The notes under the pieces are model-generated. The model ran no database searches and was not told the DNA's origin. It worked only from the letters and a program-made list of their open reading frames with translations. Below are positions 26,353 through 56,546 of a stretch of 64,000 nt of DNA, piece after piece. The translations under genes were made by a program, and so were the position numbers. The DNA comes from Maribacter aquimaris. Its GTDB lineage: Bacteria; Bacteroidota; Bacteroidia; Flavobacteriales; Flavobacteriaceae. The stretch spans positions 744,001-808,000 of the forward strand of contig NZ_JABTCF010000001.1 in the NCBI RefSeq assembly GCF_014596745.1, in the 5' to 3' direction. Within the stretch, counting starts at the first letter, position 1. Every line of letters starts with the position of its first letter.

Positions 26353-26395
26353 CAAATATACCTGAGACCTTATGACCAAATCATGACATTGATCA
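26353..26395 (-). promoter_or_regulatory. TGAC-N4-type operator with -7 element, pyruvate kinase/amylase/GlgX operon
   Basis: The palindrome-like box TGACATTGATCA (26384-26395) is one mismatch from full TGAC-N4-GTCA symmetry. TATATTTG (complement of 26353-26360) is a perfect TAnnTTTG -7 element exactly 23 bp from the box. The start codon is 35 bp further on. A second near-box (26373-26383, TGACCAAATCA) overlaps it partly. Confidence 0.65.
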
Positions 26396-26650
26396 TAATC
26401 TAATAGGATTGACCCCAATTTTTATGGTATTATTGGCAATCCCGTAAAGTCTGAGTGGAAAAAGGATTCATCAAATGATAAAAAATTCATTTTCCCTAAA
26501 AAAATGTGGGATATTAAGGTTTTCTTTTAAGGATATACGGGTCGTCAAGATGTTAAAGCTACCTTTTATTATAGGTACTGTGTCAAAAAACAAATCTTTT
26601 CTTTAAAAATTTAGGAAACAAATTGATTTATCGATCGTTCAGACTCCATC

Positions 26651-27325
26651 CTACTCCCCTTCAATACTATGGTCAAATCTTTCATTAGGCATACCAATGA
26701 CCCCCCTAATGAAACCATGGACAATAGCAATTGGCAAAAAAAGGAAGCCCAATAGTAGTGTTTTCAATTCGTAAAACAAGGAACTGTCTTTATATGGCTT
26801 TCCTTTTAGTCTGGATAGCAATGCGCTAAGGGGAATTCCGTACATATTCCCAACGATCATCATTTGACTGGCCGAAAGTATGATTTTTGCTTTTTCCCCT
26901 CCATATTCCTTGACAATGGCATCGTAAGCGTATTTCTTTGGGTACCCTCTTGAATCAGCAAAATATTGGGCAAAGAGAATCGCTTTTGCTTCTTCAGGCT
27001 TAATGAAACTACCACCGCCACCTTCGCTTAGAAAGCTGTTTATCTCTTTATTGCCCATCCCTTGACGCAATGCCATTTTAGCATGGCCGTATGAGCAGAT
27101 CGCACAACCGTTTACTTCGGTAATTGCCAAGTGGATACGTTTCACGAAATTTTGGTCCACTAATTTACTTTTTTTATTTCCAATTAATTTGGACATTGCC
27201 CTTGGGGCAAAAACAGTAGCGCGATACATTTCCCTTAAACTGAATTTACGTTTAAATTCCATTCTTGGACTTATCGTTCTCGGTAAGGTCATATCCTCTT
27301 CCATTTTCGTATTTCCATTACGCAT
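26651..27325 (-). CDS. AhpD-like/carboxymuconolactone decarboxylase-family protein
   Basis: 224 residues, all-helical. The redox motif C74-x2-C77-x3-H81, with E70 four residues before the first Cys, matches the AhpD-type proton relay and CxxC centre. A C-terminal hydrophobic segment (about 190-212) may anchor it to the membrane, which is unusual for the family. AhpD-like proteins reduce peroxiredoxins or act as thiol peroxidases; the partner is unknown. It stands alone; the 332-bp spacer on its downstream side holds the amylase-operon promoter. Confidence 0.8.
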   Translation of the reverse strand: MRNGNTKMEEDMTLPRTISPRMEFKRKFSLREMYRATVFAPRAMSKLIGNKKSKLVDQNFVKRIHLAITEVNGCAICSYGHAKMALRQGMGNKEINSFLSEGGGGSFIKPEEAKAILFAQYFADSRGYPKKYAYDAIVKEYGGEKAKIILSASQMMIVGNMYGIPLSALLSRLKGKPYKDSSLFYELKTLLLGFLFLPIAIVHGFIRGVIGMPNERFDHSIEGE

Positions 27326-28059
27326 TCGCTTCCTTATTTCTTCACATGTTACGTCCTAAAATACGGCTTCGTAATAGTATTCAAATAAGCCCGTGCCTGG
27401 CAATAAATCCTACACGGTGTGCCTGTTGCACAATTCCCTTTCCCCAAAAGATCTATAAAAATCGATTGCTGGCATCAAGTATCCTATCTGAAAAACAACT
27501 GCCTTAAAAAACGTTTATTGAAGTCCGTATTATTGTGTGGCGTAAGATTCCATTGTGCGGTTTATACCCTAAAGTTAATAAATAATATACAGATGGAATG
27601 ACCACGATCCCCATCGCTTTGCGGTTCGTAAATGGGCTTTTGCACAATTTCCGTATCCCGTAAATCAATAAAAAACAATTTAACGCAATAGTAATACCGA
27701 TTTATTCATAAATTACCTTTAAAACCTGTTATTTTTGTACGCTCCTAGCGCACCAAGGATTTTGGGAACCCGCTAAAATAGTTTGTAAGGAATCTTCCTG
27801 AATTTGGGCGATATGGGAGAAACCAAAACCGACCATCACATGGAGGCATCAGGTTTTTTTTATGGACAGAACGGACATTTGGTCCCCCAACACAACACCT
27901 TCTTGAAACTATGGGATTGTCTGTGTTTCGCCAACAAAATATAGTTTTTGGCAAGTACCGGTCCCGAACCATCCCCATGAAGGCATTTTAGGTGGTTTTT
28001 GGGGGGATTACCGATTAAATTGGAACCCTGTTTGGGTTCCCCATTAAAATATTAGATAA
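27326..28059. other. 734-bp spacer without a supported gene
   Basis: Open frames here are short and have no recognisable protein features. Two stretches that begin with TTGCACAATT (near 27425 and 27643) look loosely alike over about 45 bp. A small hairpin (GGAACCC stem, 28022-28040) lies just before the FRG-domain gene. I see no operator of the TGAC-N4-GTCA type. Confidence 0.5.
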
Positions 28060-28875
28060 ATGACAGATTTCGAGTTGTTTGAACCTAAGAATTGGATAGA
28101 ACTCCAAGAATTTTTATTCAATGAAAAGGACCATAAAATAGATAGGTTTAGATCCCCATATGCGTATAGGGGTGTTTATGATGCGGAATTTGGTTTAGAG
28201 CCCAGTCTGCAAAGAATGGGAAGGAAACCTTCGAAGGTTGAAGGTACCATGATCAGAAACTTTAAAAAGTACTCTCCGATAAACACTTTGACCGACGATT
28301 ATAACAACCTATGGAACTGGATGACGTTAGGACAACACCACGGACTCCCCACAAGGCTTATTGACTGGACCCACTCACCCAATGTTGCTTTACATTTTTT
28401 AACGGAGGACATGGACACCTATGATGTCGACGGTGCCATCTGGATGGTAAACTATGTAGCCCTTAGGGATCAATTGCCGGAAGAACTTAAAACCCCCATT
28501 TTCAACAAGGACATATTCTATTTTAGCTCAACGGAATTGCAACAGACCATAGGTAATTCCTTAGAGCAATTATATGATTTTTCAAGTAGGAATGCCAATA
28601 CCATGATATTTTTTGAGCCTCCCTCCCTTGATGATCGCATCATAAACCAATTCGCTCTTTTTTCGTTTATGCTAGATCCGGATTCCAATCCATTGGAATG
28701 GCTTAAAAAGCATCCCAAATATTTAAAAAAGGTAATTATACCTTCAGGACTAAAGTGGGAAATCAGGGATAAGCTCGACCAGGCCAATATTACGGAAAGA
28801 ATCATATATCCTGGCTTGGAGGGTATATCCAAATGGCTCAAAAGATGGTATAGCGACAAGAACAAACTTAAGTAA
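28060..28875 (+). CDS. FRG-domain protein
   Basis: 271 residues. The FRG domain occupies about 10-160, with the YRG core in SPYAYRGVYDA and the signature QHHGLPTRLIDWTHSPNVALHF. The remainder holds a conserved IIPSGLKWEIRDKLDQANITERIIYPGLEGISKWL tail, split here only for description. The domain's biochemical activity is unknown. FRG proteins are frequent in phage-defence loci and mobile regions. This one is solitary, next to tRNA-derived repeats, which fits horizontally acquired DNA. Confidence 0.8.
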   Translation: MTDFELFEPKNWIELQEFLFNEKDHKIDRFRSPYAYRGVYDAEFGLEPSLQRMGRKPSKVEGTMIRNFKKYSPINTLTDDYNNLWNWMTLGQHHGLPTRLIDWTHSPNVALHFLTEDMDTYDVDGAIWMVNYVALRDQLPEELKTPIFNKDIFYFSSTELQQTIGNSLEQLYDFSSRNANTMIFFEPPSLDDRIINQFALFSFMLDPDSNPLEWLKKHPKYLKKVIIPSGLKWEIRDKLDQANITERIIYPGLEGISKWLKRWYSDKNKLK

Positions 28876-29020: not shown

Positions 29021-29179
29021 CATTTTGCTCCATACAAACAAAAAAAGTAGTTTGCTTTCACAAACCACTTTTCTACTTGGTCGGGATGACAGGATTTAAA
29101 TAATCCTAATAAACCCTCACTGAAAATAGAAAAGTGAAGGCAGGCGCCTTCCTTCTTTTCTGCTTGGTCGGGATGACAG
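29021..29179 (-). repeat. tRNA 3'-end/terminator repeat cluster, left copy
   Basis: Read leftward, 29097-29078 gives AAATCCTGTCATCCCGACCA: T-stem strand, 7-nt acceptor strand, discriminator A and CCA of a tRNA, probably tRNA-Pro because position 72 is G. Downstream of it is a terminator-like hairpin (29045-29070) with a T-run. A second partial tRNA end lies at 29165-29179. A further hairpin (29136-29151) sits between them. The stretch 29076-29159 is identical over 84 bp to 56733-56816. No tRNA body is present. Confidence 0.75.
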
Positions 29180-29362: not shown

Positions 29363-29890
29363 CTATGGCCTAACTGTTTCTTCTGAATGTAAATGAACTT
29401 CCGAGGCAGATGAATCGGTCATAATTTTCTTTGCACGCTCCAAATCTTCGATTGTTCCATGGGCCATAACCAAAAATTTATCGGCCTTTAAAGCCTTCTC
29501 GTAATGTATCACACTATCTTTAGGAATTCCTATACTGAAAAGTGCCGCACCCAAAGCGGATAAACCACCAACAACAGCGGCCCCTTCAAGACCTCCAATT
29601 AATGAGGACACAATAGGTCCTGCGAACATAACAGGTCCAATTCCAGGGATAAGGAAAAAACCGGCACCGAAAATAAGACCCCATATGCCACCCCAGAAAG
29701 CACCCGCCGATCCCCAGTTTTTCATTCTATCGCCAATGTTATAGAAACCTATTACCTTATCTTCCTCGTGATAATCTTTACCCACGATAGATAGTTTCTT
29801 CATATTAAACCCAGATTCATTTAGTTCCTTGACCACTTTTTCAGCTTGATGATGCGATTCGCATATTGCCACTGTTACTCCATTTTTCAT
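29363..29890 (-). CDS. GSP17M/DUF1269-like stress membrane protein
   Basis: About 175 residues from the preferred ATG at 29890 (an upstream TTG at 29917 would add 9 residues without family similarity). It has two ferredoxin-like halves (VAICESHHQAEKVVKEL, and DKFLVMAHGTIEDLERAKKIM) that flank a glycine-rich hydrophobic segment of about 70 residues with GAGFFLIPGIGPVMFAGP. This is the arrangement of general-stress protein 17M and DUF1269 proteins. Function is not known; membrane association is likely. It has a perfect operator/-7 pair upstream. Confidence 0.8.
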   Translation of the reverse strand: MKNGVTVAICESHHQAEKVVKELNESGFNMKKLSIVGKDYHEEDKVIGFYNIGDRMKNWGSAGAFWGGIWGLIFGAGFFLIPGIGPVMFAGPIVSSLIGGLEGAAVVGGLSALGAALFSIGIPKDSVIHYEKALKADKFLVMAHGTIEDLERAKKIMTDSSASEVHLHSEETVRP

Positions 29891-29946
29891 ACTATTGTCT
29901 TTATTTGTTAAACTCAATTTTCTAAATAGTCATACGAATTAGGATT

Positions 29947-29989
29947 CAAAGCTATTGGGTTTAAATTGTCAATCTCCTGACTTAAATCA
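29947..29989 (-). promoter_or_regulatory. TGAC-N4-GTCA-type operator and -7 element of the GSP17M-like gene
   Basis: Box TGACTTAAATCA (29978-29989) lies inside the longer palindrome CCTGACTTAAATCAGG. TAGCTTTG (complement of 29947-29954) is a perfect TAnnTTTG, exactly 23 bp away. The start codon is 57 bp beyond the -7 element. Confidence 0.75.
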
Positions 29990-30570: not shown

Positions 30571-30602
30571 TTTACAGTTGGGTTTAAATGGACCATTGCC
30601 CC

Positions 30603-31151: not shown

Positions 31152-31817
31152 TTAATACACCCAATACACTCCTTCATTATAATCCGAATATTTTTTTACA
31201 AGAAGTTTGTTCGCTTTTTTATTATAATCCTGAACCCTTTTCTCCCAAGCCTTATATTCTGCATCCAATTTTTTCCCTTCATGCAGTAAGTCTACCCCTT
31301 CCTTTCCAACTTCAGGCAACAGCTTTCCTTCTTCGCTTTTTAGCTTAGAAAGTGAATGATTGAATTTACGCCTTGTTTTATGGCTTACAGCTTCGCCTGG
31401 TTCAGTTAAAAGGTACATGTTATCTGTCGAAAGATATTCATGGGCTATATTGATTTCGGCATTGGCAATAACCTCTCGCAGGGAATTCGTTGAAAATTTT
31501 TTGCCGTTCTTTAAATCGGTTTCCATCCTGTTCAGGGCATCTACCGCCTTTTCAAGGTTTATTTTATATAGTCCTGAAACGTTTTTACTTTCCTTTTGAA
31601 GTTCCAAAATGCCCTTTTCCAATTGTGCCGCCGCAGCTTCGAGATTTTCTTTGTCCAGATTGGCCAATGCCTCGGTAAAATACTTATCAGATTTGTTCTG
31701 TAACCTGCTTATTGTCGCTTCATCGACAATTCCTGAAGTATCGTCTTTATGCTCTCCCTTGCAGCCAATTATAAATGAAGCAAAAAAAAGTAATAGTACT
31801 GTTATTGTAGCTTTCAT
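31152..31817 (-). CDS. helical lipoprotein, YfdX-like, function unknown
   Basis: 221 residues with a lipobox (FIIGC) and a strongly helical mature part. Its pattern of paired helices (KYFTEALANLDKENLEAAAAQLEKGILELQ and INIAHEYLSTDNMYLLTEP) is reminiscent of YfdX-family stress proteins, but this is a weak resemblance. It would sit on the periplasmic face of a membrane. It is the first gene behind a perfect operator/-7 pair, with a predicted leader of under 20 nt. Confidence 0.6.
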   Translation of the reverse strand: MKATITVLLLFFASFIIGCKGEHKDDTSGIVDEATISRLQNKSDKYFTEALANLDKENLEAAAAQLEKGILELQKESKNVSGLYKINLEKAVDALNRMETDLKNGKKFSTNSLREVIANAEINIAHEYLSTDNMYLLTEPGEAVSHKTRRKFNHSLSKLKSEEGKLLPEVGKEGVDLLHEGKKLDAEYKAWEKRVQDYNKKANKLLVKKYSDYNEGVYWVY

Positions 31818-31839: not shown

Positions 31840-31882
31840 CAAAATTATGTAGATTGGATTATTCATTGCCTGACTTGGGTCA
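31840..31882 (-). promoter_or_regulatory. TGAC-N4-GTCA operator and -7 element of the YfdX-like gene
   Basis: Box TGACTTGGGTCA (31871-31882) lies within CCTGACTTGGGTCAGG. TAATTTTG (complement of 31840-31847) is a perfect TAnnTTTG exactly 23 bp away. Confidence 0.75.
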
Positions 31883-33482: not shown

Positions 33483-33556
33483 CGAAGTTAATCAGCTGCT
33501 TGGTTATTCTAGATGACCTAAGTCAGGCTTTGCCCAAGACCCCAAACATACCTTTG
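33483..33556. promoter_or_regulatory. shared TGAC-N4-GTCA operator between ClC and enolase
   Basis: Box TGACCTAAGTCA (33514-33525). Rightward, TACCTTTG (33549-33556) is a perfect -7 element at exactly 23 bp, towards enolase. Leftward, TAACTTCG (complement of 33483-33490) matches five of six fixed positions, also at exactly 23 bp, towards ClC. The palindrome could therefore activate both genes. The enolase leader would be about 160 nt. Confidence 0.7.
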
Positions 33557-35163: not shown

Positions 35164-35175
35164 TGACTTAGGTCA
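35164..35175. promoter_or_regulatory. orphan TGAC-N4-GTCA operator before a pseudogene
   Basis: TGACTTAGGTCA is a good copy of the box, but no TAnnTTTG lies at the expected distance on either side. The downstream DNA holds only decayed coding sequence (35275-35460 and the lactate dehydrogenase remnant), so the promoter has probably decayed as well. Confidence 0.55.
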
Positions 35176-35520: not shown

Positions 35521-36125
35521 TGAGAGTAGCGATTTTTAATGTACACAATTGGTAAAAGGAGTTTCCAGAAAGTGCCAATAACGGCAAAAACTCTCTCAGA
35601 ATGTCAGAAACTTACCTGGCTGTTGATACGGTAGAGTTGGGAAAAGATTGAGTTGCCATCTCTATTTTTATGAAGATGATGCCTCTGAACCTGTTATAGA
35701 TAGGTTGTATGATTTAGGTATTCGTTTTATAGTGTTGCGTTCGGCGGCTTTCAACAATATCGATGTCGACCATGCCCAAAAATCAGGCATCAGCATAGCG
35801 AGGGTTCCCGAATATTCAACACATGCCATTGTAGAGTTTACCATAGCGGTTATGCTAGCCCAGAACCGGAAGCTATTTCGTACTAATTACCGGGTCAAAG
35901 ACATGAATTTCCCCCTTAACGGACTTGCTATTTTTGATATGAACGGCAAAACGGTCGGTATAATAGTAACTGGGAGGTTTGGGTGGGTAGTTTACAAGAT
36001 CTTATATGGTTTTTGGCTGCAAACTTCTGGCCTATGATGTGCTTTTTACGATACCGTCATTTACCCTAAAAGAGAGCCTAAAGCATAAATTATCGCTCAT
36101 ACCCGAAAGTAAGTTTTGTTAACAG
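35521..36125 (+). pseudogene. decayed D-lactate dehydrogenase-type 2-hydroxyacid dehydrogenase
   Basis: An ATG at 35521 opens MRVAIFNVHNW then stops; the frame is broken again, and resumes at 35648-36037 with DRLYDLGIRFIVLRSAAFNNIDVDHAQ (seen in parts), ARVPEYSTHAIVEFTIAVMLAQNRK and GLAIFDMNGKTVGII, the LdhA-type substrate and hinge regions. The dinucleotide-binding motif begins but the frame shifts at about 35990, after which LLAYDV is recognisable in another frame. Catalytic Arg, Glu and His regions are gone. It would have reduced pyruvate to D-lactate. An upstream stretch, 35275-35460, is also a broken ORF of unknown origin. Confidence 0.8.
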
Positions 36126-36272: not shown

Positions 36273-36315
36273 TGACCTAGGTCAGTCTTAATTCCCCCTA
36301 CTACCCATAATTTTG
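36273..36315 (+). promoter_or_regulatory. TGAC-N4-GTCA operator and -7 element, first HdeD gene
   Basis: Box TGACCTAGGTCA (36273-36284) is a perfect 12-bp palindrome. TAATTTTG (36308-36315) is a perfect TAnnTTTG exactly 23 bp downstream. The HdeD start lies 112 bp later, and the flavoprotein gene follows that. Confidence 0.78.
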
Positions 36316-36427: not shown

Positions 36428-36982
36428 ATGGCAACAATTTTAAATTCAGCCCAAAAAGCTATAAAAAACTGGTGGATATCAATTTTAATAGGCCTACTGT
36501 ACATATTTGTAGGAGTCTGGGTAATACAAACCCCTTTGGAAAGCTACATATCCCTAAGCATTATTTTTAGTGTTTTCATTTTTGTCTCAGGAATATTCCA
36601 GATTACATTTTCCATTTCCAACAAAAACGAAATGAAAGAATGGGGTTGGTACCTGGCCGGGGGTATTTTAGACCTCATCATAGGGCTATTGCTCATAGCG
36701 CATCCTATGATGACCATGGCCATTTTACCTTTATATGTAGGTCTTTGGTTGTTATTTCAAAGCATATTGTCCATGGGTCTTTCCTTTCAACTGAAATCCG
36801 CAGGAATACCACGATGGGGCATTTTACTGTTTTGGAGCATCGTAACCCTGTTATTTTCCTTTTTGCTCTTGGCAAATCCATTCTTTGCAGGCCTTAGCAT
36901 TGTATACATGACGGCCTTTGCTTTTATAACCGCTGGGATATTCAGGTTGTTTTTGGGAATAAACCTTAAAAGATTTAGGTAA
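36428..36982 (+). CDS. HdeD-family (DUF308) membrane protein
   Basis: 184 residues with six hydrophobic segments in the paired-repeat layout of HdeD/DUF308 proteins. It starts SAQKAIKNWWISILIGLLYIFVGV and has the conserved ILDLIIGLLLIAHP between the halves. HdeD is an inner-membrane acid-stress protein of unknown mechanism. It is 47 percent or so alike in layout, by eye, to the gene at 43369-43941, which has its own operator. It precedes the flavoprotein by 105 bp. Confidence 0.88.
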   Translation: MATILNSAQKAIKNWWISILIGLLYIFVGVWVIQTPLESYISLSIIFSVFIFVSGIFQITFSISNKNEMKEWGWYLAGGILDLIIGLLLIAHPMMTMAILPLYVGLWLLFQSILSMGLSFQLKSAGIPRWGILLFWSIVTLLFSFLLLANPFFAGLSIVYMTAFAFITAGIFRLFLGINLKRFR

Positions 36983-37087
36983 AACCTTTTAAGAAAAATC
37001 AAGAAACTTTCACAAAATTGAGCCGTAAGGGACATAACAAAATGACAATAACCCGAACGGGCCACAAGCAAACGGAACAAAAGTCAT

Positions 37088-40667: not shown

Positions 40668-40710
40668 TGACCTAAATCAGTACAATTATTTTCAGTTCAT
40701 AATAACTTTG
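40668..40710 (+). promoter_or_regulatory. TGAC-N4-type operator and -7 element of dps
   Basis: Box TGACCTAAATCA (40668-40679) and a perfect TAACTTTG (40703-40710) exactly 23 bp downstream. The dps start is 31 bp after the -7 element. The preceding 270 bp hold nothing recognised. Confidence 0.75.
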
Positions 40711-41475: not shown

Positions 41476-41518
41476 TGATGTAGGTCAGTATTATCATTTT
41501 AATACCGAAATACCTTTG
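41476..41518 (+). promoter_or_regulatory. TGA-type operator and -7 element of the PepSY-like gene
   Basis: Box TGATGTAGGTCA (41476-41487) and a perfect TACCTTTG (41511-41518) exactly 23 bp downstream, 27 bp before the gene. Confidence 0.7.
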
Positions 41519-43302: not shown

Positions 43303-43346
43303 TGACAGCAGTCATGATTTTACAACTAAACTACTTTTAGCATTTG
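43303..43346 (+). promoter_or_regulatory. TGAC-N4-GTCA operator and -7-like element, second HdeD gene
   Basis: Box TGACAGCAGTCA (43303-43314). TAGCATTTG (43338-43346) starts exactly 23 bp later and resembles TAnnTTTG with one extra spacer base. The gene starts 22 bp further on. Confidence 0.65.
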
Positions 43347-46044: not shown

Positions 46045-46087
46045 CAAATTTGCGAATTTATAGGGTATGACGGTATGACCTGGGTCA
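46045..46087 (-). promoter_or_regulatory. TGAC-N4-GTCA operator and -7 element of the sigma-factor gene
   Basis: Box TGACCTGGGTCA (46076-46087). CAAATTTG (46045-46052) lies exactly 23 bp away and differs from TAnnTTTG at one fixed base. The last three bases of the box are the TGA stop codon of the neighbouring gene (46085-46645). Confidence 0.7.
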
Positions 46088-46645
46088 GTGACCAAAATCC
46101 CTCTTATCCAACAATTTAAAGGAAACATTTAAAATGCCCTTTTTCGAATGGTCAATGGGCTCCAATTTGTCAAGTACACCCTCCAACAAATGAATATCAA
46201 AATAATTTCCCCTAATCAACATTAGGTATTCACCATCATTCAATAAATCTATATATGTCCCTGCTCTTTTCTTTCTAATCCCCAGTCCTCTTAAAACCCC
46301 ATAGGGCCCTCCGGACAATTCCCCTAATGTTTTTTCATTTATCTTATCCAAAAAAATAGGTGCTAAGAATCCTGTAACGAATAATTCTCCCGATTCAGCA
46401 TTATTAAAAAATCCTAAATCGGTATCCTGGCCTAAAAGATTTTTAAAATAATTTCCCAAACAAACCTTGCTATCGGTAGGCCTTTTTGAATTTTGGGACT
46501 GTACTTTCTCAAGATTTCCGAGAATGGAAATCATAATATTTTTGATTTTGCTATTTTGAATAACCTCTATAGTCTTTTCAAGATTTGAGATTTGGTCATA
46601 AGAGCGTAAAAAAACGTGTTTTTTTTCCGCTTTTGGAGCATTCAT
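46085..46645 (-). CDS. hypothetical protein with two ferredoxin-like halves
   Basis: 186 residues, soluble. N-terminal YDQISNLEKTIEVIQNSKI and C-terminal GEYLMLIRGNYFDIHLLEGVL resemble the two flanking halves of the GSP17M-like protein at 29363-29890. The middle, LGFFNNAESGELFVTGFLAP then LSGGPYGVLRGLGI, replaces the membrane segment. It may be a soluble relative; this is by-eye similarity. It has its own operator/-7 pair. Confidence 0.55.
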   Translation of the reverse strand: MNAPKAEKKHVFLRSYDQISNLEKTIEVIQNSKIKNIMISILGNLEKVQSQNSKRPTDSKVCLGNYFKNLLGQDTDLGFFNNAESGELFVTGFLAPIFLDKINEKTLGELSGGPYGVLRGLGIRKKRAGTYIDLLNDGEYLMLIRGNYFDIHLLEGVLDKLEPIDHSKKGILNVSFKLLDKRDFGH

Positions 46646-46698: not shown

Positions 46699-46741
46699 CT
46701 AAATTAGTTAGGTACATGTTCCTATTACCTGACATAAGTCA
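46699..46741 (-). promoter_or_regulatory. TGAC-N4-GTCA operator and -7 element, 186-residue protein gene
   Basis: Box TGACATAAGTCA (46730-46741). TAATTTAG (complement of 46699-46706) differs from TAnnTTTG at one fixed base and lies exactly 23 bp away; the gene begins 54 bp later. Confidence 0.68.
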
Positions 46742-46919
46742 TACTGCTCCGTATTATGCCACACTAAATTTATTTGGACTATAGGCTATATGGTAAATAA
46801 CAATTGATATCTTACGGTAATTCAAAGCCTGAGAAATTTAGGATTCTATCTAGGTGCAAAAGGGCAAATCCCCTACATGAAGGGGTGAAAAAAATCAGTA
46901 TTTTAAAATTGTCCTTTCT

Positions 46920-47990
46920 TTATCCGAAATCCGCTATGTATTGTAGTTGATTTCTATTGATTACGATTATCTTATTGTTACTATCGGATCGAATTAATCC
47001 CTCCTTTTTGAAACTGGACAGTACACGAATAGCGGTTTCCGTGGCCGTGCCGATCAGCCCCGCAAAATCTTCACGGGAAACATTTGCCCCGGCAAGCTCC
47101 TCGCCACCAATCAGACCTTTATCGTACAATTCCAATAAGGTAGTGGCCGCACGTTTTCGAACCGTATCGAAAGCCATACCCATTAACTGGTCCTGTAGAT
47201 GCTGTAGATCATTCGAAATCATCCCGATAAATTTATTCGAAACATCTTTGTTGTTGAATAATAGATGGGTAAACTCATTTTTGGGAATTGCACATAATTT
47301 ACATTCATCGAGCGCAACTGCAGTTTCGGTATACATACCAGAAGGACCAAGTACAGAAAGTTGCCCTACAAAATCCCCTGTTTTGAACATCCCTGTCAAA
47401 TATTCCTTACCGTTTTCGCTGTACTTAAAGGTTTTTATTGCACCACTGTGTATAAAATAGAGATTATGGGCAGTATCGCCCTCAGAATAGATTTCCTTCT
47501 TTCGTTCATATTCCAATACCTCTCGGTCTGCAGAAAGATCTTGTAGATTTTGATATTCAGAGGCCTCCTGTATAAAAGCATTTATTCCTTCCACATTTTT
47601 GGAGAATTCCTTACGAAGGAAATCGTTCTTTTTTAGGCGTATATCAATGGCCTCTAACAGTTCATCTGCCTCAAAAGGTTTGGTCAAGTAATCATCTGCA
47701 CCCATTGTCATACCTTTTCGCAGGTCTGCACGCTCCGATTTAGCGGTTAAGAATATAAAAGGAATTCCCGCCGTTTCCGGGTTTTCTTTCAAATGTTCAA
47801 AAACCCCATAACCATCCAGTTTCGGCATCATTATATCACATACGATTAAATCTGGCAAAACTTCTTCTGCCTTTACAATTCCTTCATTCCCATCCTTCGC
47901 CGTGGTAACCAAATAGTTTTCCAATTCCAATATCTCTGCGGTCATCTCCCGCACATCTTGACTATCTTCAATGAGTAGTATTTTTTTCAT
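46920..47990 (-). CDS. response regulator with CRP/FNR DNA-binding module
   Basis: 356 residues. Receiver domain at about 1-120 with phospho-acceptor D52 in VCDIMMPKLDG, plus FLTAK and the YLTKPF Lys. A linker leads to a cyclic-nucleotide-binding-fold domain (about 160-275, SEGDTAHNLYFIHSGAIK, in part) and a CRP-type winged helix (about 275-350). The recognition helix reads TATETAIRVLSSF; the Glu and Arg align with FNR E209 and R213, which read the TGA core of a half-site. It starts 23 bp inside the end of the histidine kinase gene, so the pair is co-expressed. It is the best local candidate to bind TGAC-N4-GTCA. Confidence 0.9.
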   Translation of the reverse strand: MKKILLIEDSQDVREMTAEILELENYLVTTAKDGNEGIVKAEEVLPDLIVCDIMMPKLDGYGVFEHLKENPETAGIPFIFLTAKSERADLRKGMTMGADDYLTKPFEADELLEAIDIRLKKNDFLRKEFSKNVEGINAFIQEASEYQNLQDLSADREVLEYERKKEIYSEGDTAHNLYFIHSGAIKTFKYSENGKEYLTGMFKTGDFVGQLSVLGPSGMYTETAVALDECKLCAIPKNEFTHLLFNNKDVSNKFIGMISNDLQHLQDQLMGMAFDTVRKRAATTLLELYDKGLIGGEELAGANVSREDFAGLIGTATETAIRVLSSFKKEGLIRSDSNNKIIVINRNQLQYIADFG

Positions 47991-50900
47991 CTTCGTTTTG
48001 ATTTATGGGTAATTTGACATAAAAGATGGTGCCTTTGTCCAACTCAGTTTTAAAACTTATAGTCCCCCCCATTAATTCGGCATATTGTTTTACGATATTT
48101 AAACCCAGACCAGTACCTTGGATATTTACAGCATTCTTTGCCCGGTGAAACCTTTTAAAAAGGTGATCTTGATCTTCTTCCGGTATCCCTATACCTTGAT
48201 CTTCTACACTAAATTCTACCAAATCGTGATTGGCCCCCATTTTATAGATAATCTCTGTATTTTCTTCAGAATACTTAATGGCATTCGACAGCAAATTGTG
48301 GACAATGTGACGCAATAGATTTGAATCGAGACTTACCATTAACTTGGATGATCCGCTTACAAATTTGATTACCTGTCCTTTTTTTGCGTTCCCCTGAATC
48401 TCTTCGATAATCGTTTTTGAAAAATCGACGCTGTCAAATGTACTTGGTTGTACTTCAACCTTACCTTCCTCCAACTTACTTAGCGAAAGGAATTCATTTA
48501 AAATAATGACCAGATTTTTAACGCTGGATTTTATGCGGTCAACATAACCGATACGTTTTTCTTCCTTACCAGGGTCATTCTGTCTTTCAATAAGATTGGC
48601 AGCAGATAGAATAGTACTTAATGGGGTTCGAAATTCATGTGAGGCGGTGGACACAAACCGTGATTTTAGTTCACTCAATTCCTGTTCCCTTTTTAGGGCT
48701 TTAATAATTTCATGTTCTGCCTCTTTTTGTAAAGAAATATTGTTGTATACCAATAATACTTTTAAAATAGTATTATCTACATCAAAAAGTGGCGCAGTAT
48801 TCACCATATATGACCTGTCCTGAAATTCTACTTCAAAAGAACAATGTTCCCCATCAAATGTTCTTTCAATATTGCTTTTGAGCTTTTCCTTAATATGTTC
48901 TGGCGCTAAATCGATGGCATCAATGGCAGACTTCGATTTTTCAACATCTTTGAGCCTCAATTCATCCCATTCTTCCCCTTCTATAAAAACCACTTCATAA
49001 TTTGCATCTACCACCTCGACAAACCCCATAGGAAAATCCTTGGCAATCTTATAAAACAATTGTTGATTGGTCAGTGCTCGTTTTTCAGCTTCTTCAGTTA
49101 CTTGAATTTGATCTTCGAGGCTTAAATTAGATGCCACCAGTTTTTGTACCATTTTTTGAAGTTCTTGGGTACGTTCGTCGACCTTATCTTCAAGATTCTT
49201 TGTATAATCCGCGAGTTTATCCGTACTGTCCTTAAGGGCTAGTGAAATTTCATGCTGTTCAATGGCCATACTCGCGACTTGTACCATATCAGCCATTATT
49301 TGTTTTTCATTGTCTAATGGCAATCTTGAAACCTTATTGTAAACTGCAAAAGTTCCCAAAACCTCATCCTTGGATGATAGTATAGGAAAAGACCAACAAG
49401 ACTGTAAACCATCACCCGATGCCACTTTTCCTAGGTCTACCCAATTTGGGTCGCTGGCTATATTGGCCGTAATTACTTCTTTTTTTGTAAACGCTGCCGT
49501 ACCACATGAACCAACATTAGGCCCAATAGAGAGTCCTTCAGAAGCAGTAGCAAACTTTTCTGGAAGATTAGGTCCCGACAATTTATGTAAGGTGTTTTTA
49601 TAACGATCCAGTAATAATAAAGAAGCCATACTATTCGGGATAGTCTTTTCTATGGTATCCACGATTTTATCCCCTATGTCCTTTAAAGGTTCATTTTGGA
49701 TAATCATATCCATCACGGTATTGACACCACTTTTTACTATATCCTTTTGTTTACGTACCGTAACATCGTTTTCTATGCCTATAAAATGGGTCAGCGTCTT
49801 TTTTTCGTCGAATACAGGAGTGAGGGAAATCTCATTCCAGAACATCCGACGATCTTTCCGGTAGTTACGCAAAACCACTTGGCAACTTTTACCCTCTGCA
49901 ATGGCAGCCTCCATGATTTTGTTTTCATGTTGCTCTATATCGTCACCTTGTAAGAATTGAAAATTTTTCCCTACAATATCCTGTGCATGGTAGCCCGTAA
50001 TCGTTAAAAAAGCATCATTAGTATAGATTATAGGTATATCATGCTGTCGTGCATCTGCAATAACGATACCACTAGAGCTTGCGGCCAATGCCCTTTGTTG
50101 TAGGAATAGGGTGTCTTCCATGTCCTTCTTTTCAGTAATGTCCCTACCAATGCACATAACCTTGTTCTTATCAAAAGGAACGAAGCGTACTTCAAAAAAA
50201 AGTTGTCGCCCTCTTATCGGCAGTTCGAATTTCTCGACGATTATTTGATGATGTTTATCTGCCTCCTTTAGTGCATTTATGAAGGGCATACTTGTTTTAT
50301 CCTGTAAAAAATCGGAAACATTCTTTCCTATTAGTTCTTCCATGGCATCGAATAGCTTGGTATGCTGTTCCATATTAGCCTGTAAAAGATTTCCGTTTAT
50401 ATCATATATGGAAATCAAATCCGGATGTGCCCCAAAAATAGCCCTGTTCTTTTCCTCGCTTAGACATAAGTTTTCAAAATAGGTCTTTCTCTCGGTGATG
50501 TCACGGATAATGGCTAGAAAATCACCTTGATCCGTTTGATTAATCCGTGATTCATAATGTCTCAACTCATCTTTCACAATAAGTGAATACTCTACAAGTT
50601 GGGTCTCTTTTGTTTTATCACATAGTTTAAAACCCCGTCTAATTATTCCACAAACCTTCGAAGGAAGAATCACATCGATATTTTTACCTATATGTTCACT
50701 AAAAGGCGCTACTAGTTCAAAACTATCATGCGCATGAACTTCTAGGTGATTACCTAATTTATCGTAGACTATCACTAAATCTGGTAAGGTTTTGATTAAA
50801 TCCTTATTCTTTTCCTCACTAATACTTAGGTTTTCTATATAAGCTATCTTTTCGGTTACATCCTGTACAAAACCTTCTATGGCGAAACACCTGTTCTTAG

Positions 50901-51303
50901 CATCATAAACGCCCTGACCTTGCTCCCAAAAGTGACATATTCTTCCACTTTTGTGTTTTATTCGAAATTGGATACTAAAAGGTTCTTTTTTAGCAAGTGC
51001 TTTTTGAATATTATTCCAGACCATTTTTCGGTCTTCTTCCAAGATAAGTTGACCAAATTGAACGGTACCGTTCACGAATTCCTCAGGTGTATATCCAGTC
51101 AAAACCAAACAGCCAGCACTTTTGTACTCCGAACTATAGTTTTTATCATTTTTGGCTCGATAGGCATAACCGGGCAAGTTGTTGATTAGCGTATTTAATT
51201 TCCTATTACTTTCGTTCAAGGCGGCAATAAGCTCTAGATGCGTTTGATGCCCTACCGACAGGTTGTTGTTAGAATATTGTATATCACTTTGTAGTTCTTT
51301 CAT
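47968..51303 (-). CDS. soluble multi-PAS/GAF hybrid-sensor histidine kinase
   Basis: 1111 residues, no transmembrane segment. Order: PAS (about 30-155), PAS (about 165-275), PAS (about 285-395), LOV-like PAS (about 400-515), GAF (about 520-690), coiled coil (about 690-755), PAS (about 760-870), HisKA with H889 in ASHEFRTPLST, and HATPase with N, G1 (DQGIGIPEED) and G2 (GTGLGLNIVKQY) boxes. The LOV-like domain reads GKNFQFLQG: F448 replaces the photoactive Cys. Being soluble with flavin/PAS modules, it should sense an internal signal such as redox, oxygen or light. It is partnered with the overlapping receiver-CRP fusion. Confidence 0.93.
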   Translation of the reverse strand: MKELQSDIQYSNNNLSVGHQTHLELIAALNESNRKLNTLINNLPGYAYRAKNDKNYSSEYKSAGCLVLTGYTPEEFVNGTVQFGQLILEEDRKMVWNNIQKALAKKEPFSIQFRIKHKSGRICHFWEQGQGVYDAKNRCFAIEGFVQDVTEKIAYIENLSISEEKNKDLIKTLPDLVIVYDKLGNHLEVHAHDSFELVAPFSEHIGKNIDVILPSKVCGIIRRGFKLCDKTKETQLVEYSLIVKDELRHYESRINQTDQGDFLAIIRDITERKTYFENLCLSEEKNRAIFGAHPDLISIYDINGNLLQANMEQHTKLFDAMEELIGKNVSDFLQDKTSMPFINALKEADKHHQIIVEKFELPIRGRQLFFEVRFVPFDKNKVMCIGRDITEKKDMEDTLFLQQRALAASSSGIVIADARQHDIPIIYTNDAFLTITGYHAQDIVGKNFQFLQGDDIEQHENKIMEAAIAEGKSCQVVLRNYRKDRRMFWNEISLTPVFDEKKTLTHFIGIENDVTVRKQKDIVKSGVNTVMDMIIQNEPLKDIGDKIVDTIEKTIPNSMASLLLLDRYKNTLHKLSGPNLPEKFATASEGLSIGPNVGSCGTAAFTKKEVITANIASDPNWVDLGKVASGDGLQSCWSFPILSSKDEVLGTFAVYNKVSRLPLDNEKQIMADMVQVASMAIEQHEISLALKDSTDKLADYTKNLEDKVDERTQELQKMVQKLVASNLSLEDQIQVTEEAEKRALTNQQLFYKIAKDFPMGFVEVVDANYEVVFIEGEEWDELRLKDVEKSKSAIDAIDLAPEHIKEKLKSNIERTFDGEHCSFEVEFQDRSYMVNTAPLFDVDNTILKVLLVYNNISLQKEAEHEIIKALKREQELSELKSRFVSTASHEFRTPLSTILSAANLIERQNDPGKEEKRIGYVDRIKSSVKNLVIILNEFLSLSKLEEGKVEVQPSTFDSVDFSKTIIEEIQGNAKKGQVIKFVSGSSKLMVSLDSNLLRHIVHNLLSNAIKYSEENTEIIYKMGANHDLVEFSVEDQGIGIPEEDQDHLFKRFHRAKNAVNIQGTGLGLNIVKQYAELMGGTISFKTELDKGTIFYVKLPINQNEDEKNTTH

Positions 51304-51731: not shown

Positions 51732-51773
51732 CAAAGGTAATACCCCTTTTATCTAAAATCATGACCTAGGTCA
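51732..51773 (-). promoter_or_regulatory. TGAC-N4-GTCA operator and -7 element facing the histidine kinase
   Basis: Box TGACCTAGGTCA (51762-51773), a perfect palindrome within CATGACCTAGGTCATG. TACCTTTG (complement of 51732-51739) is a perfect TAnnTTTG, 22 bp away. The kinase start is 428 bp beyond the -7 element, so a long leader or an unseen RNA would be implied. The remaining 51304-51731 shows no ORF. Confidence 0.6.
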
Positions 51774-51915: not shown

Positions 51916-51958
51916 TGACCCAGGTCATGACCTGACAGTTAAAGCGAGATTAATTTTA
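51916..51958 (+). promoter_or_regulatory. TGAC-N4-GTCA operator and -7 element of the universal stress gene
   Basis: Box TGACCCAGGTCA (51916-51927), followed by an extra TGACCTGACAG. TAATTTTA (51951-51958) lies exactly 23 bp downstream and differs from TAnnTTTG only at its last base. The gene starts 17 bp later. Confidence 0.7.
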
Positions 51959-51975: not shown

Positions 51976-52827
51976 ATGAAAAAAATAATCTTACCCACTG
52001 ATTTTTCAGATAATGCTTACAACGCTATTAGATATGCTGCCCAACTATTCAAAGATGAAAACACTACTTTTTATTTACTGCATACCTACACACCCCCTAT
52101 CTATGCATCGGAATTTGTATCGCAAAGTCCAATTGAATATGAGCTAGCTGATGCGTATAGGGCTAACTCGATATCCCAATTGAAAAAAACCAAAAATAGA
52201 GTTGAAAAAGAATTTAAAAACCCAAAACATTCCTTTATCACACATTCTGCTTTCAATACTTTGGTAGAAGAAGTATTGGGCACCATTGAATATGAAAAGG
52301 CCGACCTTGTTATTATGGGAACCCAAGGGGCCACAGGCGCCAATGAAATTTTGTTTGGCACAAATACGGTACATCTTATTAAAAAATCAACCTGTCCCGT
52401 TATTGCCGTACCTACAGACTTTGTTTACGAGTCTCCAAAAGAAATATTGTTCCCGACAGATTATGAAATTGATTATAGTAAGGTGCAACTGAAACAGCTG
52501 GTAATGATTGCCAAAAGCCAAAATTCATTACTGCATGTACTCCATATTTCTTCCGGCTATGAATTGACCAATGAACAAGAAGGAAATAAAAAAAGACTTG
52601 AATCCCAATTAGGTTCAAACAATACGATATCCCACGATATCCCGGATCAAGAAGTTATCGAGGCCATCAATGGTTTTCAAACAAAAAAACCGATTATGTT
52701 ATTGGTTATGGTACGTAATAAACATACATTTTTTGAACGTTTATTTATTGAGCCACTTATTAAGAAAATAGCGTTTCATGTAAAAATACCTTTCATGGTA
52801 ATGCCTTATATTTCACAAAAAGAGTAA
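51976..52827 (+). CDS. universal stress protein with two UspA-type domains
   Basis: 283 residues. The N-terminal UspA domain (about 1-148) keeps the ATP-binding motif G115-x2-G118-x9-G128-T129. The C-terminal half (about 150-283) is a second, degenerate copy without the motif. Tandem Usp proteins are typical of stress regulons. It is the first gene of a short operon with the helical-protein gene that follows by 57 bp. Confidence 0.9.
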   Translation: MKKIILPTDFSDNAYNAIRYAAQLFKDENTTFYLLHTYTPPIYASEFVSQSPIEYELADAYRANSISQLKKTKNRVEKEFKNPKHSFITHSAFNTLVEEVLGTIEYEKADLVIMGTQGATGANEILFGTNTVHLIKKSTCPVIAVPTDFVYESPKEILFPTDYEIDYSKVQLKQLVMIAKSQNSLLHVLHISSGYELTNEQEGNKKRLESQLGSNNTISHDIPDQEVIEAINGFQTKKPIMLLVMVRNKHTFFERLFIEPLIKKIAFHVKIPFMVMPYISQKE

Positions 52828-53566: not shown

Positions 53567-54331
53567 TTAAGATAAATTGTTCTTGTTGCTATCTAGTTCA
53601 GACTTAGCCTTTGAATAACCAATTTGGAAAATAGTATCGATATCCCTAACGTCAAACGTACCGAAATCACACAATTTTTCCGGAAATACAACAACATCAC
53701 AATCTGCGAATTTCACCAAGGATTCGCAACTGATCTTTATCTTATAAGCCCTATCGGCAATGTTGTATGAGTGTTTTAAATCCTCAACTTTAATCTTCTT
53801 CAAAGGGTTGACAAAACTACCGATAATTTCATCACAGGATTCTTTTAGGGGTTCCACCGGAAAATTATTGATTACACCACCATCTATATAATAAGATCCA
53901 CCGATTTTGGTAGGTGTAAAAACCCCTGGAAATGAAGCCGAGGCCAAAACGGGACGAATAACCTCTCCTGAATCAAATATTTTTAAAGAACCCTTTATAA
54001 TATCCGTGGCTGTAACGAAAAACGGCATTTTTAACGCTTTGAAATCATCTTCGGGCAACAATTTCTTGAAATCGGTATAGAACTTTGAGCTATCGATAAA
54101 TCCTGGTTTTCCTAACGCATAATTATGGGTATGGAAAATAGGGATGGTTTTGAAAAAATGTAATATTTCTTCCCAACCGATGCCCCCGGCATACAAGACC
54201 CCAACGATTGCCCCAGCACTCGTACCCGAAATGTGTGTGGGATATTTACCATTTTCCTCCAATGCCTTAATAACCCCTATATGGGCAACGCCACGCATAC
54301 CGCCCCCAGACAAAACCAATCCTGTATTCAT
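53567..54331 (-). CDS. patatin-like phospholipase
   Basis: 254 residues. LVLSGGGMRGVAHIGVI holds the oxyanion-hole glycines, GTSAG the catalytic Ser, and YIDGGVINNFPVEPL the catalytic Asp (DGG), so the Ser-Asp dyad is complete. No signal peptide is seen. Lipid acyl hydrolase activity is expected. It is last in a leftward operon, 24 bp after cardiolipin synthase, fitting phospholipid turnover. Confidence 0.92.
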   Translation of the reverse strand: MNTGLVLSGGGMRGVAHIGVIKALEENGKYPTHISGTSAGAIVGVLYAGGIGWEEILHFFKTIPIFHTHNYALGKPGFIDSSKFYTDFKKLLPEDDFKALKMPFFVTATDIIKGSLKIFDSGEVIRPVLASASFPGVFTPTKIGGSYYIDGGVINNFPVEPLKESCDEIIGSFVNPLKKIKVEDLKHSYNIADRAYKIKISCESLVKFADCDVVVFPEKLCDFGTFDVRDIDTIFQIGYSKAKSELDSNKNNLS

Positions 54332-54355
54332 ACTGTTTGTTTAAATATTGAATTT

Positions 54356-55798
54356 CTAAAGGACCGGGCTAAACACCTTAGCCATGCCCTCTTTTAATCG
54401 ATTAATTTTAGGTCTTTTCAGATAGTCTATATAGTCAAGTTGAGTACTTTTTTTACAATCACCAAGAAAATCATTACGCAATGTTTCGGCAAATTCCTTT
54501 TCATATATCAGGACATTGACTTCGTAGTTCTGCTCAAAACTTCGTATATCGAGGTTCGCCGTACCTATTGTCGTTAGTTCATCATCTGAAACAATTATTT
54601 TACTGTGTAAAAATCCATCGGAATATTGATAGATTTTTATTCCTGCCTCTAAGTAATCTTCAAAATACGAACTGACCGTCCATTTAACTAAAAAATTATC
54701 GGAATTGGCCGGCAGCAATATGCGAACATCAACACCACCAATGGCAGCATCTCGTAAAGCTTCTAATAAAACCTCTCCAGGAATAACATAAGGATTGGTA
54801 ATATAAACGTACTTTTCGGCCGCATTGATAATTGCAATATACAATTGATGTATAGACGAATAATCGGAATCGGGGCCGCTTGAAACCACTTGTGCAATCG
54901 ATTTTCCCTGAGCGGCATGTTCAACGAAATAGGGCCGTGACAATATATCGTTCTTTCCGCTGGCAAAACTCCAATCCACAGCAAAAACTGCCTGCAGACT
55001 ATTAATTACCGGGCCCTTTAATTGCAGGTGCATATCGTGCCAAACACCCAAAACGGGATCTCCTTTGATATATTTGTCCGAAACGTTAATACCGCCTGTA
55101 AAGGCCACACATCCGTCTACAATAACAATTTTTCTATGGTTACGGTAATTGACGGAAGAAAGAAGCCTGCTGAACCGAATCGGTAAGAAGCTATGGATTT
55201 CTACCCCCGTATCTCGGAGTTCCCTTATATGTTTTTTGGTCAACATTCGGCTGCCCAAGCCGTCATATAGTGCACGGATTTGGACGCCCTCCTTAGCCTT
55301 GCTTTTGAGTATAGCCATGAATCGTTGCGCCAAGTCACCTTCTTCAAAAATGTAATATTGAATATGGATATAGTATTTGGCCTCTTGCATGGCCCTAAAT
55401 ATGGCTTTGAAAGTAGCTGGTCCATCCTTTAACGGAACAAGCTCATTCCCGAAGGAAGGTGTAAACTTAGAACTCTTGGTAATCAGTTTTACCAATTTCA
55501 CATGCTTTTTCAAAAGTTTGGACATTTGGGCTTTATCGTCTTCCCCTACGGTTTGGTAGTACTTATCGACACCATCAAGATATTCGGTAACCAGCTCTGT
55601 CTTTTTTAACTTGAAGAATTTATTTTTTTTCCGATTACGCCCTAAAATAAAATAGAACAGCATACCGCCCACAGGAATTGTGAAAATAGCCAAAAGCCAT
55701 CCCAAGGTTTTGGTAGGCCGAACACCATAGAGAAAAAGCCTTATCACCATCGCGATGGCCAAAATAAAATACAAAATAAGGGCTACTGTTGCACCCAT
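54356..55798 (-). CDS. cardiolipin synthase (phospholipase D family)
   Basis: 480 residues, two N-terminal hydrophobic helices (about 1-55), then two HKD motifs: NYRNHRKIVIVDG and FLHSKIIVSDDELTTIGTANLD (seen in parts). This is the layout of bacterial Cls, which condenses phosphatidyl groups to cardiolipin in the inner membrane. Located between the DUF6134-like and patatin genes. Confidence 0.92.
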   Translation of the reverse strand: MGATVALILYFILAIAMVIRLFLYGVRPTKTLGWLLAIFTIPVGGMLFYFILGRNRKKNKFFKLKKTELVTEYLDGVDKYYQTVGEDDKAQMSKLLKKHVKLVKLITKSSKFTPSFGNELVPLKDGPATFKAIFRAMQEAKYYIHIQYYIFEEGDLAQRFMAILKSKAKEGVQIRALYDGLGSRMLTKKHIRELRDTGVEIHSFLPIRFSRLLSSVNYRNHRKIVIVDGCVAFTGGINVSDKYIKGDPVLGVWHDMHLQLKGPVINSLQAVFAVDWSFASGKNDILSRPYFVEHAAQGKSIAQVVSSGPDSDYSSIHQLYIAIINAAEKYVYITNPYVIPGEVLLEALRDAAIGGVDVRILLPANSDNFLVKWTVSSYFEDYLEAGIKIYQYSDGFLHSKIIVSDDELTTIGTANLDIRSFEQNYEVNVLIYEKEFAETLRNDFLGDCKKSTQLDYIDYLKRPKINRLKEGMAKVFSPVL

Positions 55799-55829
55799 AA
55801 TTAACTTGGCTAAAAATCAATATTTACCA

Positions 55830-56450
55830 TTACTTCCTTGCCACTATGCTTAAATGAATCAATCCACCATCAATATCTGCCTTTTCGAGACTTCCGTTTT
55901 TGTAATAATAAATATTTTCCTGCTTTTTCGCATTGATTTTTTTATAACTATGATTTCCTAAGGCAACTATGGCATTAAGGCTTCCACCCTGCTCTGAAAA
56001 GCATTCGTTTATTCCCGTGGGTTCTCGGAAAAACAACAAGACGGTAGTATAGTCGATAGCCTGGTGCAGCACTGTTTTTGGTTTCCCATTCTTTATTACA
56101 TAATAATTTTTATCCTTCAATCCCGTACGAGTCTTAACGTGGGGCTTTTGGTTTATCAGAATATCGACATTGGCCTTTTTCAATATACTTTTTTCAAAAA
56201 TCACATTATATTCATAATCTACCTCAACATCTTTGATAATCTTCGTTTTTATACTGGTTAGGCTCTTATAAATCGTTTGAGAACCATCCGTGGTTCTGGT
56301 GGCCTCTAAACTACCGATTACCTTATCATTCATAATGATATCAAATAACAAAGAAGTATTATCACCATTTGGCACATCAAATTGACCTATGAAAAAAGAA
56401 AAAAACAAGACTTGCCAGATTAGATGGGAATAGTTGAGCAATAATATCAT
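55830..56450 (-). CDS. exported DUF6134-like protein
   Basis: 206 residues with an N-terminal hydrophobic segment (about 1-22, likely signal). The mature part is beta-rich, with FDIIMNDKVIGSLEATRTTDGSQT at its start (quoted in part) and VLLFFREPTGINECFSEQGG near the middle, a layout I associate with DUF6134 proteins; the assignment is tentative. Role unknown. It is first in the operon with cardiolipin synthase and patatin, preceded by an operator. Confidence 0.65.
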   Translation of the reverse strand: MILLLNYSHLIWQVLFFSFFIGQFDVPNGDNTSLLFDIIMNDKVIGSLEATRTTDGSQTIYKSLTSIKTKIIKDVEVDYEYNVIFEKSILKKANVDILINQKPHVKTRTGLKDKNYYVIKNGKPKTVLHQAIDYTTVLLFFREPTGINECFSEQGGSLNAIVALGNHSYKKINAKKQENIYYYKNGSLEKADIDGGLIHLSIVARK

Positions 56451-56503
56451 TTAATTTTATTTAGAACTACCCATAATCAAAAAATATGAATGTAATATGA
56501 ATA

Positions 56504-56546
56504 CAAATTACCGAAAATAAAGGAATGCAAGCCCTGACTTGGGTCA
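56504..56546 (-). promoter_or_regulatory. TGAC-N4-GTCA operator and -7-like element, phospholipid operon
   Basis: Box TGACTTGGGTCA (56535-56546). TAATTTG (complement of 56504-56510) lies 24 bp away and is one base shorter than TAnnTTTG. The gene starts 53 bp later. Confidence 0.6.

Follow-up and report, generated by a model that had tools for sequence, protein, structure and literature searches.

The stretch of DNA analysed here (the window) comprises 64,000 nucleotides of the genome of Maribacter aquimaris, probably a marine bacterium. It carries fourteen copies of a palindromic box, TGAC-N4-GTCA, most of them at a fixed distance from a promoter element of the type TAnnTTTG (the -7 element). 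In the same cluster lie two overlapping minus-strand genes. One encodes a response regulator of 356 amino acids (46920..47990), a proposed DNA-binding activator in which a receiver precedes a cNMP-binding fold and a Crp helix-turn-helix (REC-CRP), and the other a multi-PAS/GAF histidine kinase of 1111 amino acids (47968..51303) with one LOV-like PAS domain. Judging from sequence, we consider it likely that the boxes are the operators of this REC-CRP, which would act as a phosphorylation-controlled class II activator of the CRP type on genes for glycogen use, fermentation and stress. Our confidence in this reading comes from the spacing of the boxes and from the co-occurrence of promoters and regulator across genomes.

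Boxes, promoters and the genes assigned to them

The box set described in the first-pass annotation is confirmed, as is its spacing. All 14 boxes are present, ten of them exact and four (26384, 29978, 40668 and 41476) with one mismatch. Ten exact copies compare with a mean of 0.48 in shuffled sequence, where the largest of 100 shuffles contained three. The relaxed core alone is a weak signal, since the whole window holds 25 sites with at most one mismatch against 15.7 expected, a number reached in 3 of 100 shuffles. From 26 kb onward, the pattern TGAY-N4-RTCA finds precisely the 14 named sites, and its sole further copy in the window (3934) is intragenic and has no -7 element. The boxes are also placed as had been proposed, in intergenic or promoter positions. 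On a hand-made gene list, from which both the intergenic fraction and the placement test were built, all 14 fall between genes, and intergenic DNA makes up 26.0% of the stretch concerned (random placement, p about 6e-9); the box at 46076 overlaps a stop codon by three bases.

A TAnnTTTG with at most one mismatch lies exactly 23 bp from 10 of the 14 boxes, or 12 of 28 box sides, where any other offset averages 0.29. Exact copies of the element occur at this offset on seven box sides (mean at other offsets, 0.02). After correction for 61 offsets, the binomial p for 12 of 28 sides is about 1e-14, in line with the earlier judgement that the coincidence of the two signals is hard to explain by chance. 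At two boxes (33514 and 46730) the element is found at 23 bp on both sides. The annotation had counted ten promoters at exactly 23 bp, with an extra spacer base at 43303, and two more at 22 or 24 bp. The count of ten stands, but the extra base at 43303 sits inside the element. Of the remaining exceptions, the box at 51762 is at 22 bp, 56535 has TTTG in register and TA out of register (two mismatches) and 35164 has no -7 element.

The sigma-A -7 box of Flavobacterium psychrophilum, TAnnTTTG, occupies -12 to -5 according to one study (PMC9723704). With a 23-bp spacer and this -7 position, which comes from F. psychrophilum start sites, the palindrome would cover -47 to -36 and be centred at -41.5, close to the -40 proposed before. 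Class II activation is a known mode of CRP/FNR proteins, in which CRP or FNR binds at a site centred near -41.5; on the F. psychrophilum numbering the window sites share this centre. In the 12 window promoters, no TTG occurs at spacer positions 1-4 (-35 to -32). The idea that double-sided boxes are divergent promoters selected for their symmetry was also considered and is unsupported: the window has 2 such boxes against 2.6 expected under independent sides, and the other promoter sets have 3 against 5.2, 7 against 9.7 and 1 against 6.2.

Genes were assigned to boxes by position alone. On the minus strand, a box with TATATTTG at 23 bp (26353..26395) serves a row of pyruvate kinase, alpha-amylase and isoamylase genes, a glycogen-type set that agrees with the label 'glycogen operon' given earlier. 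Two further minus-strand promoters follow, with TAGCTTTG at 23 bp (29947..29989) before a YflT-domain stress protein (29363-29917) and with TAATTTTG at 23 bp (31840..31882) before a putative lipoprotein (31152-31817), a label of our own for a protein lacking a Pfam match. The double-sided box at 33514 (33483..33556, 23 bp on each side) points with TACCTTTG to the enolase gene on the plus strand and with TAACTTCG to that of ClcA on the minus strand. The box without a -7 element (35164..35175) precedes what is left of a D-2-hydroxyacid dehydrogenase gene, a decayed frame at 35648-36037.

Four plus-strand promoters come next. The box with TAATTTTG at 23 bp (36273..36315) precedes genes for HdeD, a pyridine-nucleotide-disulphide oxidoreductase and a PoxB-like pyruvate dehydrogenase (36428-40393), the last with a match below the NCBIfam cut-offs. 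Those with TAACTTTG (40668..40710) and TACCTTTG (41476..41518), both at 23 bp, precede a Dps-like ferritin (40742-41218) and a protein with no family assignment (41546-42079), and the one with TAGCATTTG, which has one extra base (43303..43346), precedes a second HdeD (43369-43941). On the minus strand, a box with CAAATTTG at 23 bp (46045..46087) serves a weakly sigma-like protein (45244-46014). The double-sided box at 46730 (46699..46772), whose two -7 elements, both at 23 bp, are one-off versions, faces a minus-strand gene (46085-46645). The box at 51762 with TACCTTTG at 22 bp (51732..51773, minus strand) precedes the kinase-regulator operon at a distance of 470 bp from the kinase ATG. Finally, a plus-strand box with TAATTTTA at 23 bp (51916..51958) precedes a universal stress protein (51976-52827), and the box with TTTG in register (GTAATTTG; 56504..56546, minus strand) stands before DUF6134, cardiolipin synthase and patatin genes (53567-56450).

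The gene labels proposed from the first reading largely hold, namely those of the Dps-like ferritin, the universal stress protein, the two DUF308/HdeD proteins, ClcA, enolase, and cardiolipin synthase/patatin. For the sigma factor, matches to such proteins exist but are weak, below the cut-offs. Box-linked genes on other islands of the genome encode universal stress proteins, acetate kinase, phosphotransacetylase, DeoC, FtsH, a dehydrogenase E1, a nos-propeller protein, a ScdA-domain protein and a radical SAM protein read as HemN-like. This combination of glycogen use, acetate fermentation, nitrous oxide respiration and protection suggests oxygen or energy limitation as the occasion for expression.

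The proposed receiver-CRP regulator and putative sensor kinases

The REC-CRP protein matches the Pfam families Response_reg (7.8e-28), cNMP_binding (2.6e-20) and HTH_Crp_2 (6.2e-13), the latter two both above cut-off, as for members of the CRP/FNR superfamily. Its receiver has the phospho-acceptor Asp and conserved Lys of response regulators (D52 and K104, both invariant among the 70 REC-CRP proteins aligned), and a HisKA/HATPase_c kinase is encoded next to it. In the recognition helix, the two residues that read TGA, Glu and Arg, are present in 69 of the 70 proteins, the exception being a protein with a gap at this place. CRP proper carries a phosphate-binding cassette with Glu72 and Arg82, which form the cAMP pocket. 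At the position of Glu72, Glu occurs in 0 of 70 REC-CRP proteins (Y 51, Q 12, F 4, H 2, I 1), and its absence speaks against CRP proper and against control by cAMP. The column of Arg82 can be fixed only to within one position; the window protein has Tyr/Thr at it, and an Arg is found in the neighbouring column in 5 of 70. The regulator would be controlled by phosphorylation, not cAMP. FNR proper has an N-terminal cysteine cluster for its Fe-S centre; REC-CRP is not an FNR in this sense, as its N-terminus is the receiver domain.

The nearest named match of the regulator is from Maribacter polysiphoniae DSM 23514 (98% identical). No description of a receiver-CRP fusion with this box appears among the matches listed for the open-licence literature, one of the listings covering 20 of 2,203 matches. 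A paper on an anammox meta-regulon (PMC8510549) contains, in the passages covered, neither 'receiver' nor 'TGAC', and one on CRP/FNR DNA-binding domains (PMC12531629) gave no matching text on the question. Scanning GTDB genomes yielded 80 loci, and in a tree of REC-CRP proteins from 67 of them (L046-L112) the proteins form A/B (including the window), Dyadobacter-like and C groups.

The window kinase has the Pfam domains PAS, GAF_2, HisKA and HATPase_c, and the PDB matches of its LOV-like PAS include blue-light photoreceptors and LOV domains. The photoactive Cys of LOV domains sits in a GxNCRFLQ motif. In the window kinase the motif reads GKNFQFLQ, and in that of M. polysiphoniae GKNFHFLQ; with Phe at the position of the Cys, the window kinase lacks this mark of a LOV blue-light kinase. 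The canonical GKNCRFLQ is found in the paralogous A/B-type kinase of the window genome (L150) and in seven other A/B-type kinases (L047-L052 and L112); another five loci, L155-L159, all of the same genus, have the motif with variant first residues. The change from Cys to Phe is itself restricted to the window genome and M. polysiphoniae (L046; L154), the other examined A/B relatives keeping Cys.

Two further kinase/REC-CRP pairs occur in the genome (L150, 4544-9049; L151, 7451-9754), each near other box-bearing islands. The C-type kinase of the genome has a FixL-like PAS whose best PDB matches are FixL (E 1.1e-16). FixL binds heme through a ligand His, with Arg residues in the heme pocket; the heme-ligand His and two heme-pocket Arg align with identical residues in the C-type PAS, and a second His does not.

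The signal of the window kinase may be oxygen, flavin redox or blue light, or there may be none. It is possible, if somewhat doubtful, that the REC-CRP family as a whole consists of light- and oxygen-gated CRP activators. Kinases with canonical LOV motifs (the A/B types of Zobellia, Kriegella, Cyclobacterium, Muricauda and the genome's own paralog) or with a FixL-like PAS (the genome's C type) would then phosphorylate FNR-like activators with a common promoter geometry, and blue light, flavin redox and oxygen would be read through a single set of class II promoters. The Phe in the window kinase would mark a redox sensor or one fixed in the dark state.

The promoter architecture in other loci and genomes

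In the whole genome, a box followed by TAnnTTTG after 22-24 bp is found 35 times, against one match to the reversed pattern. The spacing is 23 bp in 32 cases and 22 bp in three, and eight of the matches are within the window. With TGAC-N4-RTCA and a free spacing of 5-35 bp there are 25 matches (control, 2), 17 of them at 23 bp, one at 22 bp and seven elsewhere. The bare core is neither sufficient nor specific, since the 4.86 Mb genome holds 61 exact copies against 31 of the reversed pattern. In other families of the phylum, 40 of 70 non-duplicate matches are at 23 bp and 12 at 24 bp (three duplicate rows of 73, one from G169 and two from G174, were dropped before counting). The first-pass annotation had named a spacing no tighter than random as an outcome that would tell against a regulon; the proportions at 23 bp (32/35, 17/25 and 40/70) exclude it.

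Co-occurrence was examined in 149 genomes of the family Flavobacteriaceae from 148 genera (approximately one genome per genus, the window's own included). REC-CRP is present in 66 of them (E 1e-40 or better), and an FNR-like protein, encoded beside cbb3-type genes in the window genome, in 90 (E 1e-50 or better). Exact promoters of the form box, 23 bp, -7 element number 276 in this sample, compared to five reversed controls. Genomes with both proteins have a mean of 3.64 such promoters (n=36), those with REC-CRP only 2.07 (n=30), those with the FNR-like protein only 1.41 (n=54) and those with neither 0.24 (n=29). Per Mb, in genomes of at least 2.5 Mb, the corresponding values are 0.95, 0.64, 0.42 and 0.14 (n=36, 28, 47 and 11), and within strata of the FNR-like protein the effect of REC-CRP was reached in 0 of 5000 permutations.

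A stricter form of the promoter pattern, with GG/CC in the box (TGAYCNNGRTCA-N23-TAnnTTTR), is found in 9 of 11 genomes with A/B-type REC-CRP, in 14 of 55 with other REC-CRP only and in 3 of 83 without it, with two control matches; genomes were sorted against REC-CRP presence by hand. The contrast of 9/11 with 3/83 has a Fisher p of 1e-8, and 8 of 10 remain when the window's own genome is left aside. Two kinds of CRP-family protein thus appear to share the architecture, with the GG/CC box going with REC-CRP.

At the 67 REC-CRP loci (1,324 kb), 99 exact boxes compare with 14 reversed copies, and at the seven A/B-type loci (137 kb) 25 compare with none; the entire 4.86 Mb window genome holds 61. 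The -7 element, with at most one mismatch, stands at 23 bp on 22 of 56 box sides in A, 25 of 58 in B, 41 of 126 in C and 22 of 158 in 16 Dyadobacter-like loci. Background in these profiles is 0.45 to 1.62 per offset, which makes the peak independent of the reversed control. L046 and several others were left out of the profiles, and the C set includes L130, a locus of the window's own genome. At L099 and L104-L107, six boxes are followed at 23 bp by GAnATTTG in place of TAnnTTTG, with extended shared flanks. Dyadobacter-like loci (among L053-L096) show a second peak between box and -7 element at 45-46 bp, around two helical turns farther upstream, perhaps representing class I or tandem sites.

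The set of genes around the regulator is partly conserved in Zobellia, Kriegella and Pseudozobellia, where related promoters keep their boxes and the regulators are 55-71% identical. The double-sided box before the relative of 46085-46645 recurs at L046, L047, L048, L112 and L050. Every one of the seven A/B-type loci has a box with the -7 element at 23 bp that is directed towards the kinase gene, 55-1120 bp before the open reading frame. An A-type REC-CRP 70% identical to that of the window is also present in Cyclobacterium qasimii (L052), a species of another family; this suggests horizontal transfer or a contaminated assembly.

Candidate regulators of the box set

If REC-CRP is the activator, the pathway would run as follows. 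The adjacent PAS/LOV-like/GAF histidine kinase would phosphorylate Asp52 of the receiver, and the phosphorylated dimer would bind TGAC(C)NN(G)GTCA over the positions -47 to -36, with its centre at -41.5. In the manner of class II CRP/FNR activators, it would then activate promoters whose -7 element (TAnnTTTG at -12 to -5) is good but which, in the window, have no TTG at -33. Predicted targets are glycogen mobilisation, lower glycolysis, the conversion of pyruvate to acetate and protection (Dps, Usp, HdeD, ClcA, cardiolipin synthase), with low oxygen or energy stress as the presumed occasion. The box at 51762 would provide autoregulation, and the two paralogous kinase/REC-CRP pairs, together with one FNR-like protein, would apply the same geometry to related gene islands.

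Several observations weigh against so simple an assignment. Four of the 14 boxes depart from the 23-bp rule. Outside the window, 24 of the 40 exact boxes examined (out of 51) lie in open frames of at least 150 codons, so that box copies away from promoters, another outcome named beforehand as unfavourable to a regulon, are seen in part; the -7 element at 23 bp is present at 6 of the 16 non-coding copies and at 3 of the 24 coding ones. In other families of the phylum, 73 matches with spacings of 20-26 bp stand against 37 reversed ones, and in view of the spacing counts the surplus there consists essentially of spacings of 23-24 bp. In two other promoter sets, TTG exceeds expectation at spacer position 1 (4/32 against 0.8 and 6/38 against 0.9), and therefore the loss of a -33 element is clear only in the window; in the A/B promoter set TTG peaks elsewhere in the spacer. 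Five C-related loci have the -7 element at 23 bp on 6 of 66 sides, with no clear peak and an altered element. The reversed-pattern control is lenient, because 13 loci with distant receiver relatives only also exceed it (exact box, 7 against 2; relaxed TGA..TCA, 32 against 6), with a relaxed density of 0.17 per kb compared to 0.29 per kb at the 67 REC-CRP loci. The GG/CC pattern is absent in 2 of the 11 A/B-type genomes, and the two-by-two statistics ignore kinship beyond the sampling of roughly one genome per genus. The two REC-CRP paralogs could also bind the boxes.

The remaining points of this kind concern the FNR-like protein encoded beside the cbb3 oxidase genes. Its recognition helix is nearly that of REC-CRP (TATESAIR against TATETAIR), three pairs of box and -7 element lie in the 12 kb around its own gene and the cbb3-type genes (labelled as cbb3 from sequence), and genomes that have it and lack REC-CRP still carry the architecture at well above the level seen with neither protein. 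For these reasons the bare core does not tell which protein is the regulator. The earlier regulon reading keeps its support, the class II geometry fitting it, but it had named no regulator and its core is not private to one. The FNR-like protein might itself be the main activator at the window boxes (TGACCTAGGTCA), with the REC-CRP pair as only one of its targets or acting elsewhere. We regard this as rather unlikely, as the three boxes near its gene are A/T-centred whereas the GG/CC variant of the window tracks REC-CRP, and genomes with REC-CRP but no FNR-like protein keep their promoters. Alternatively, four CRP-type proteins (three REC-CRP and one FNR-like) could compete for one pool of boxes and make the window a node of several signals, a view in keeping with the similar helices, the common 23-bp geometry of islands on contigs C1, C22 and C24, and the roughly additive two-by-two counts. 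Flanks and centres nevertheless differ by set, with window boxes often followed by G and those of the C22 and C24 islands by T, and we find such a shared pool quite unlikely.

Computation alone cannot separate activation from repression, and the boxes might be repressor operators at the same position. Repressors tolerate varied operator positions, whereas the fixed -41.5 centre and, in the window, the missing TTG at -33 match the needs of an activator in contact with RNA polymerase; repression is thus very unlikely. As for chance, or a single repeat unit copied through the cluster, the direct repeats that flank the cluster could be taken to favour copying, but the 23-bp spacers are unrelated by eye, which speaks against a simple repeat family, and no shuffle reached ten exact boxes. 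Given the spacing statistics, this origin is in effect refuted and has a negligible probability.

The REC-CRP reading also invites comparison with known systems. Like class II promoters of Escherichia coli CRP and FNR, those of the window combine a palindrome of two TGA half-sites, a recognition helix with E and R and (on the F. psychrophilum -7 position) a centre at -41.5; in contrast, the window regulator has a fused receiver and no cAMP-pocket Glu, and a -7 TAnnTTTG replaces the -10 TATAAT. FixL-FixJ-FixK is the oxygen cascade of rhizobia. The genome's third kinase/REC-CRP pair resembles it in its FixL-like PAS, but REC-CRP would merge the roles of FixJ and FixK, the phosphorylated protein itself being the CRP-type activator. 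The inner core TGAC-N4-GTCA is common to the window boxes and the HcpR regulon, for which one study gives the operator TTGACnnnnGTCAA and an FNR-type protein (PMC1274295). Membership in that regulon (TTGAC-N4-GTCAA) was rejected, the outer T being present in 0 of 12 oriented window promoters (8 C, 4 A). HcpR is not known to have a receiver domain, whereas the window regulator carries one. The DevR/DosR dormancy regulon and a low-oxygen-activated locus of Burkholderia cenocepacia are likewise reported to show hypoxia-linked control of gene sets that include universal stress proteins. The output domain of DevR is of the NarL/LuxR type, unlike that of REC-CRP, and its phylum is another than the window's.

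For Bacteroidota, whose promoters are unlike those of E. coli, the architecture offers a precise class II rule (a 12-bp palindrome, 23 bp and TAnnTTTG) that can be scanned for phylum-wide, and the receiver-CRP fusion is a proposed type of regulator. If the assignment is true, stress and fermentation genes of flavobacteria would be connected with LOV and FixL-like sensors.

No Rfam match for a structured RNA reached the gathering score in the window. A repeat of approximately 100-236 bp has copies 94-96% identical at 29023-29165, 56600-56835 and 57301-57397; these are direct repeats 27.6 kb apart that flank the box cluster, and a genome search found the repeat nowhere else. The G+C fraction drops from around 0.38-0.45 before 26 kb to 0.34-0.40 inside the cluster and stays low up to 64 kb. 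Together, the repeats and the drop possibly mark an island boundary.

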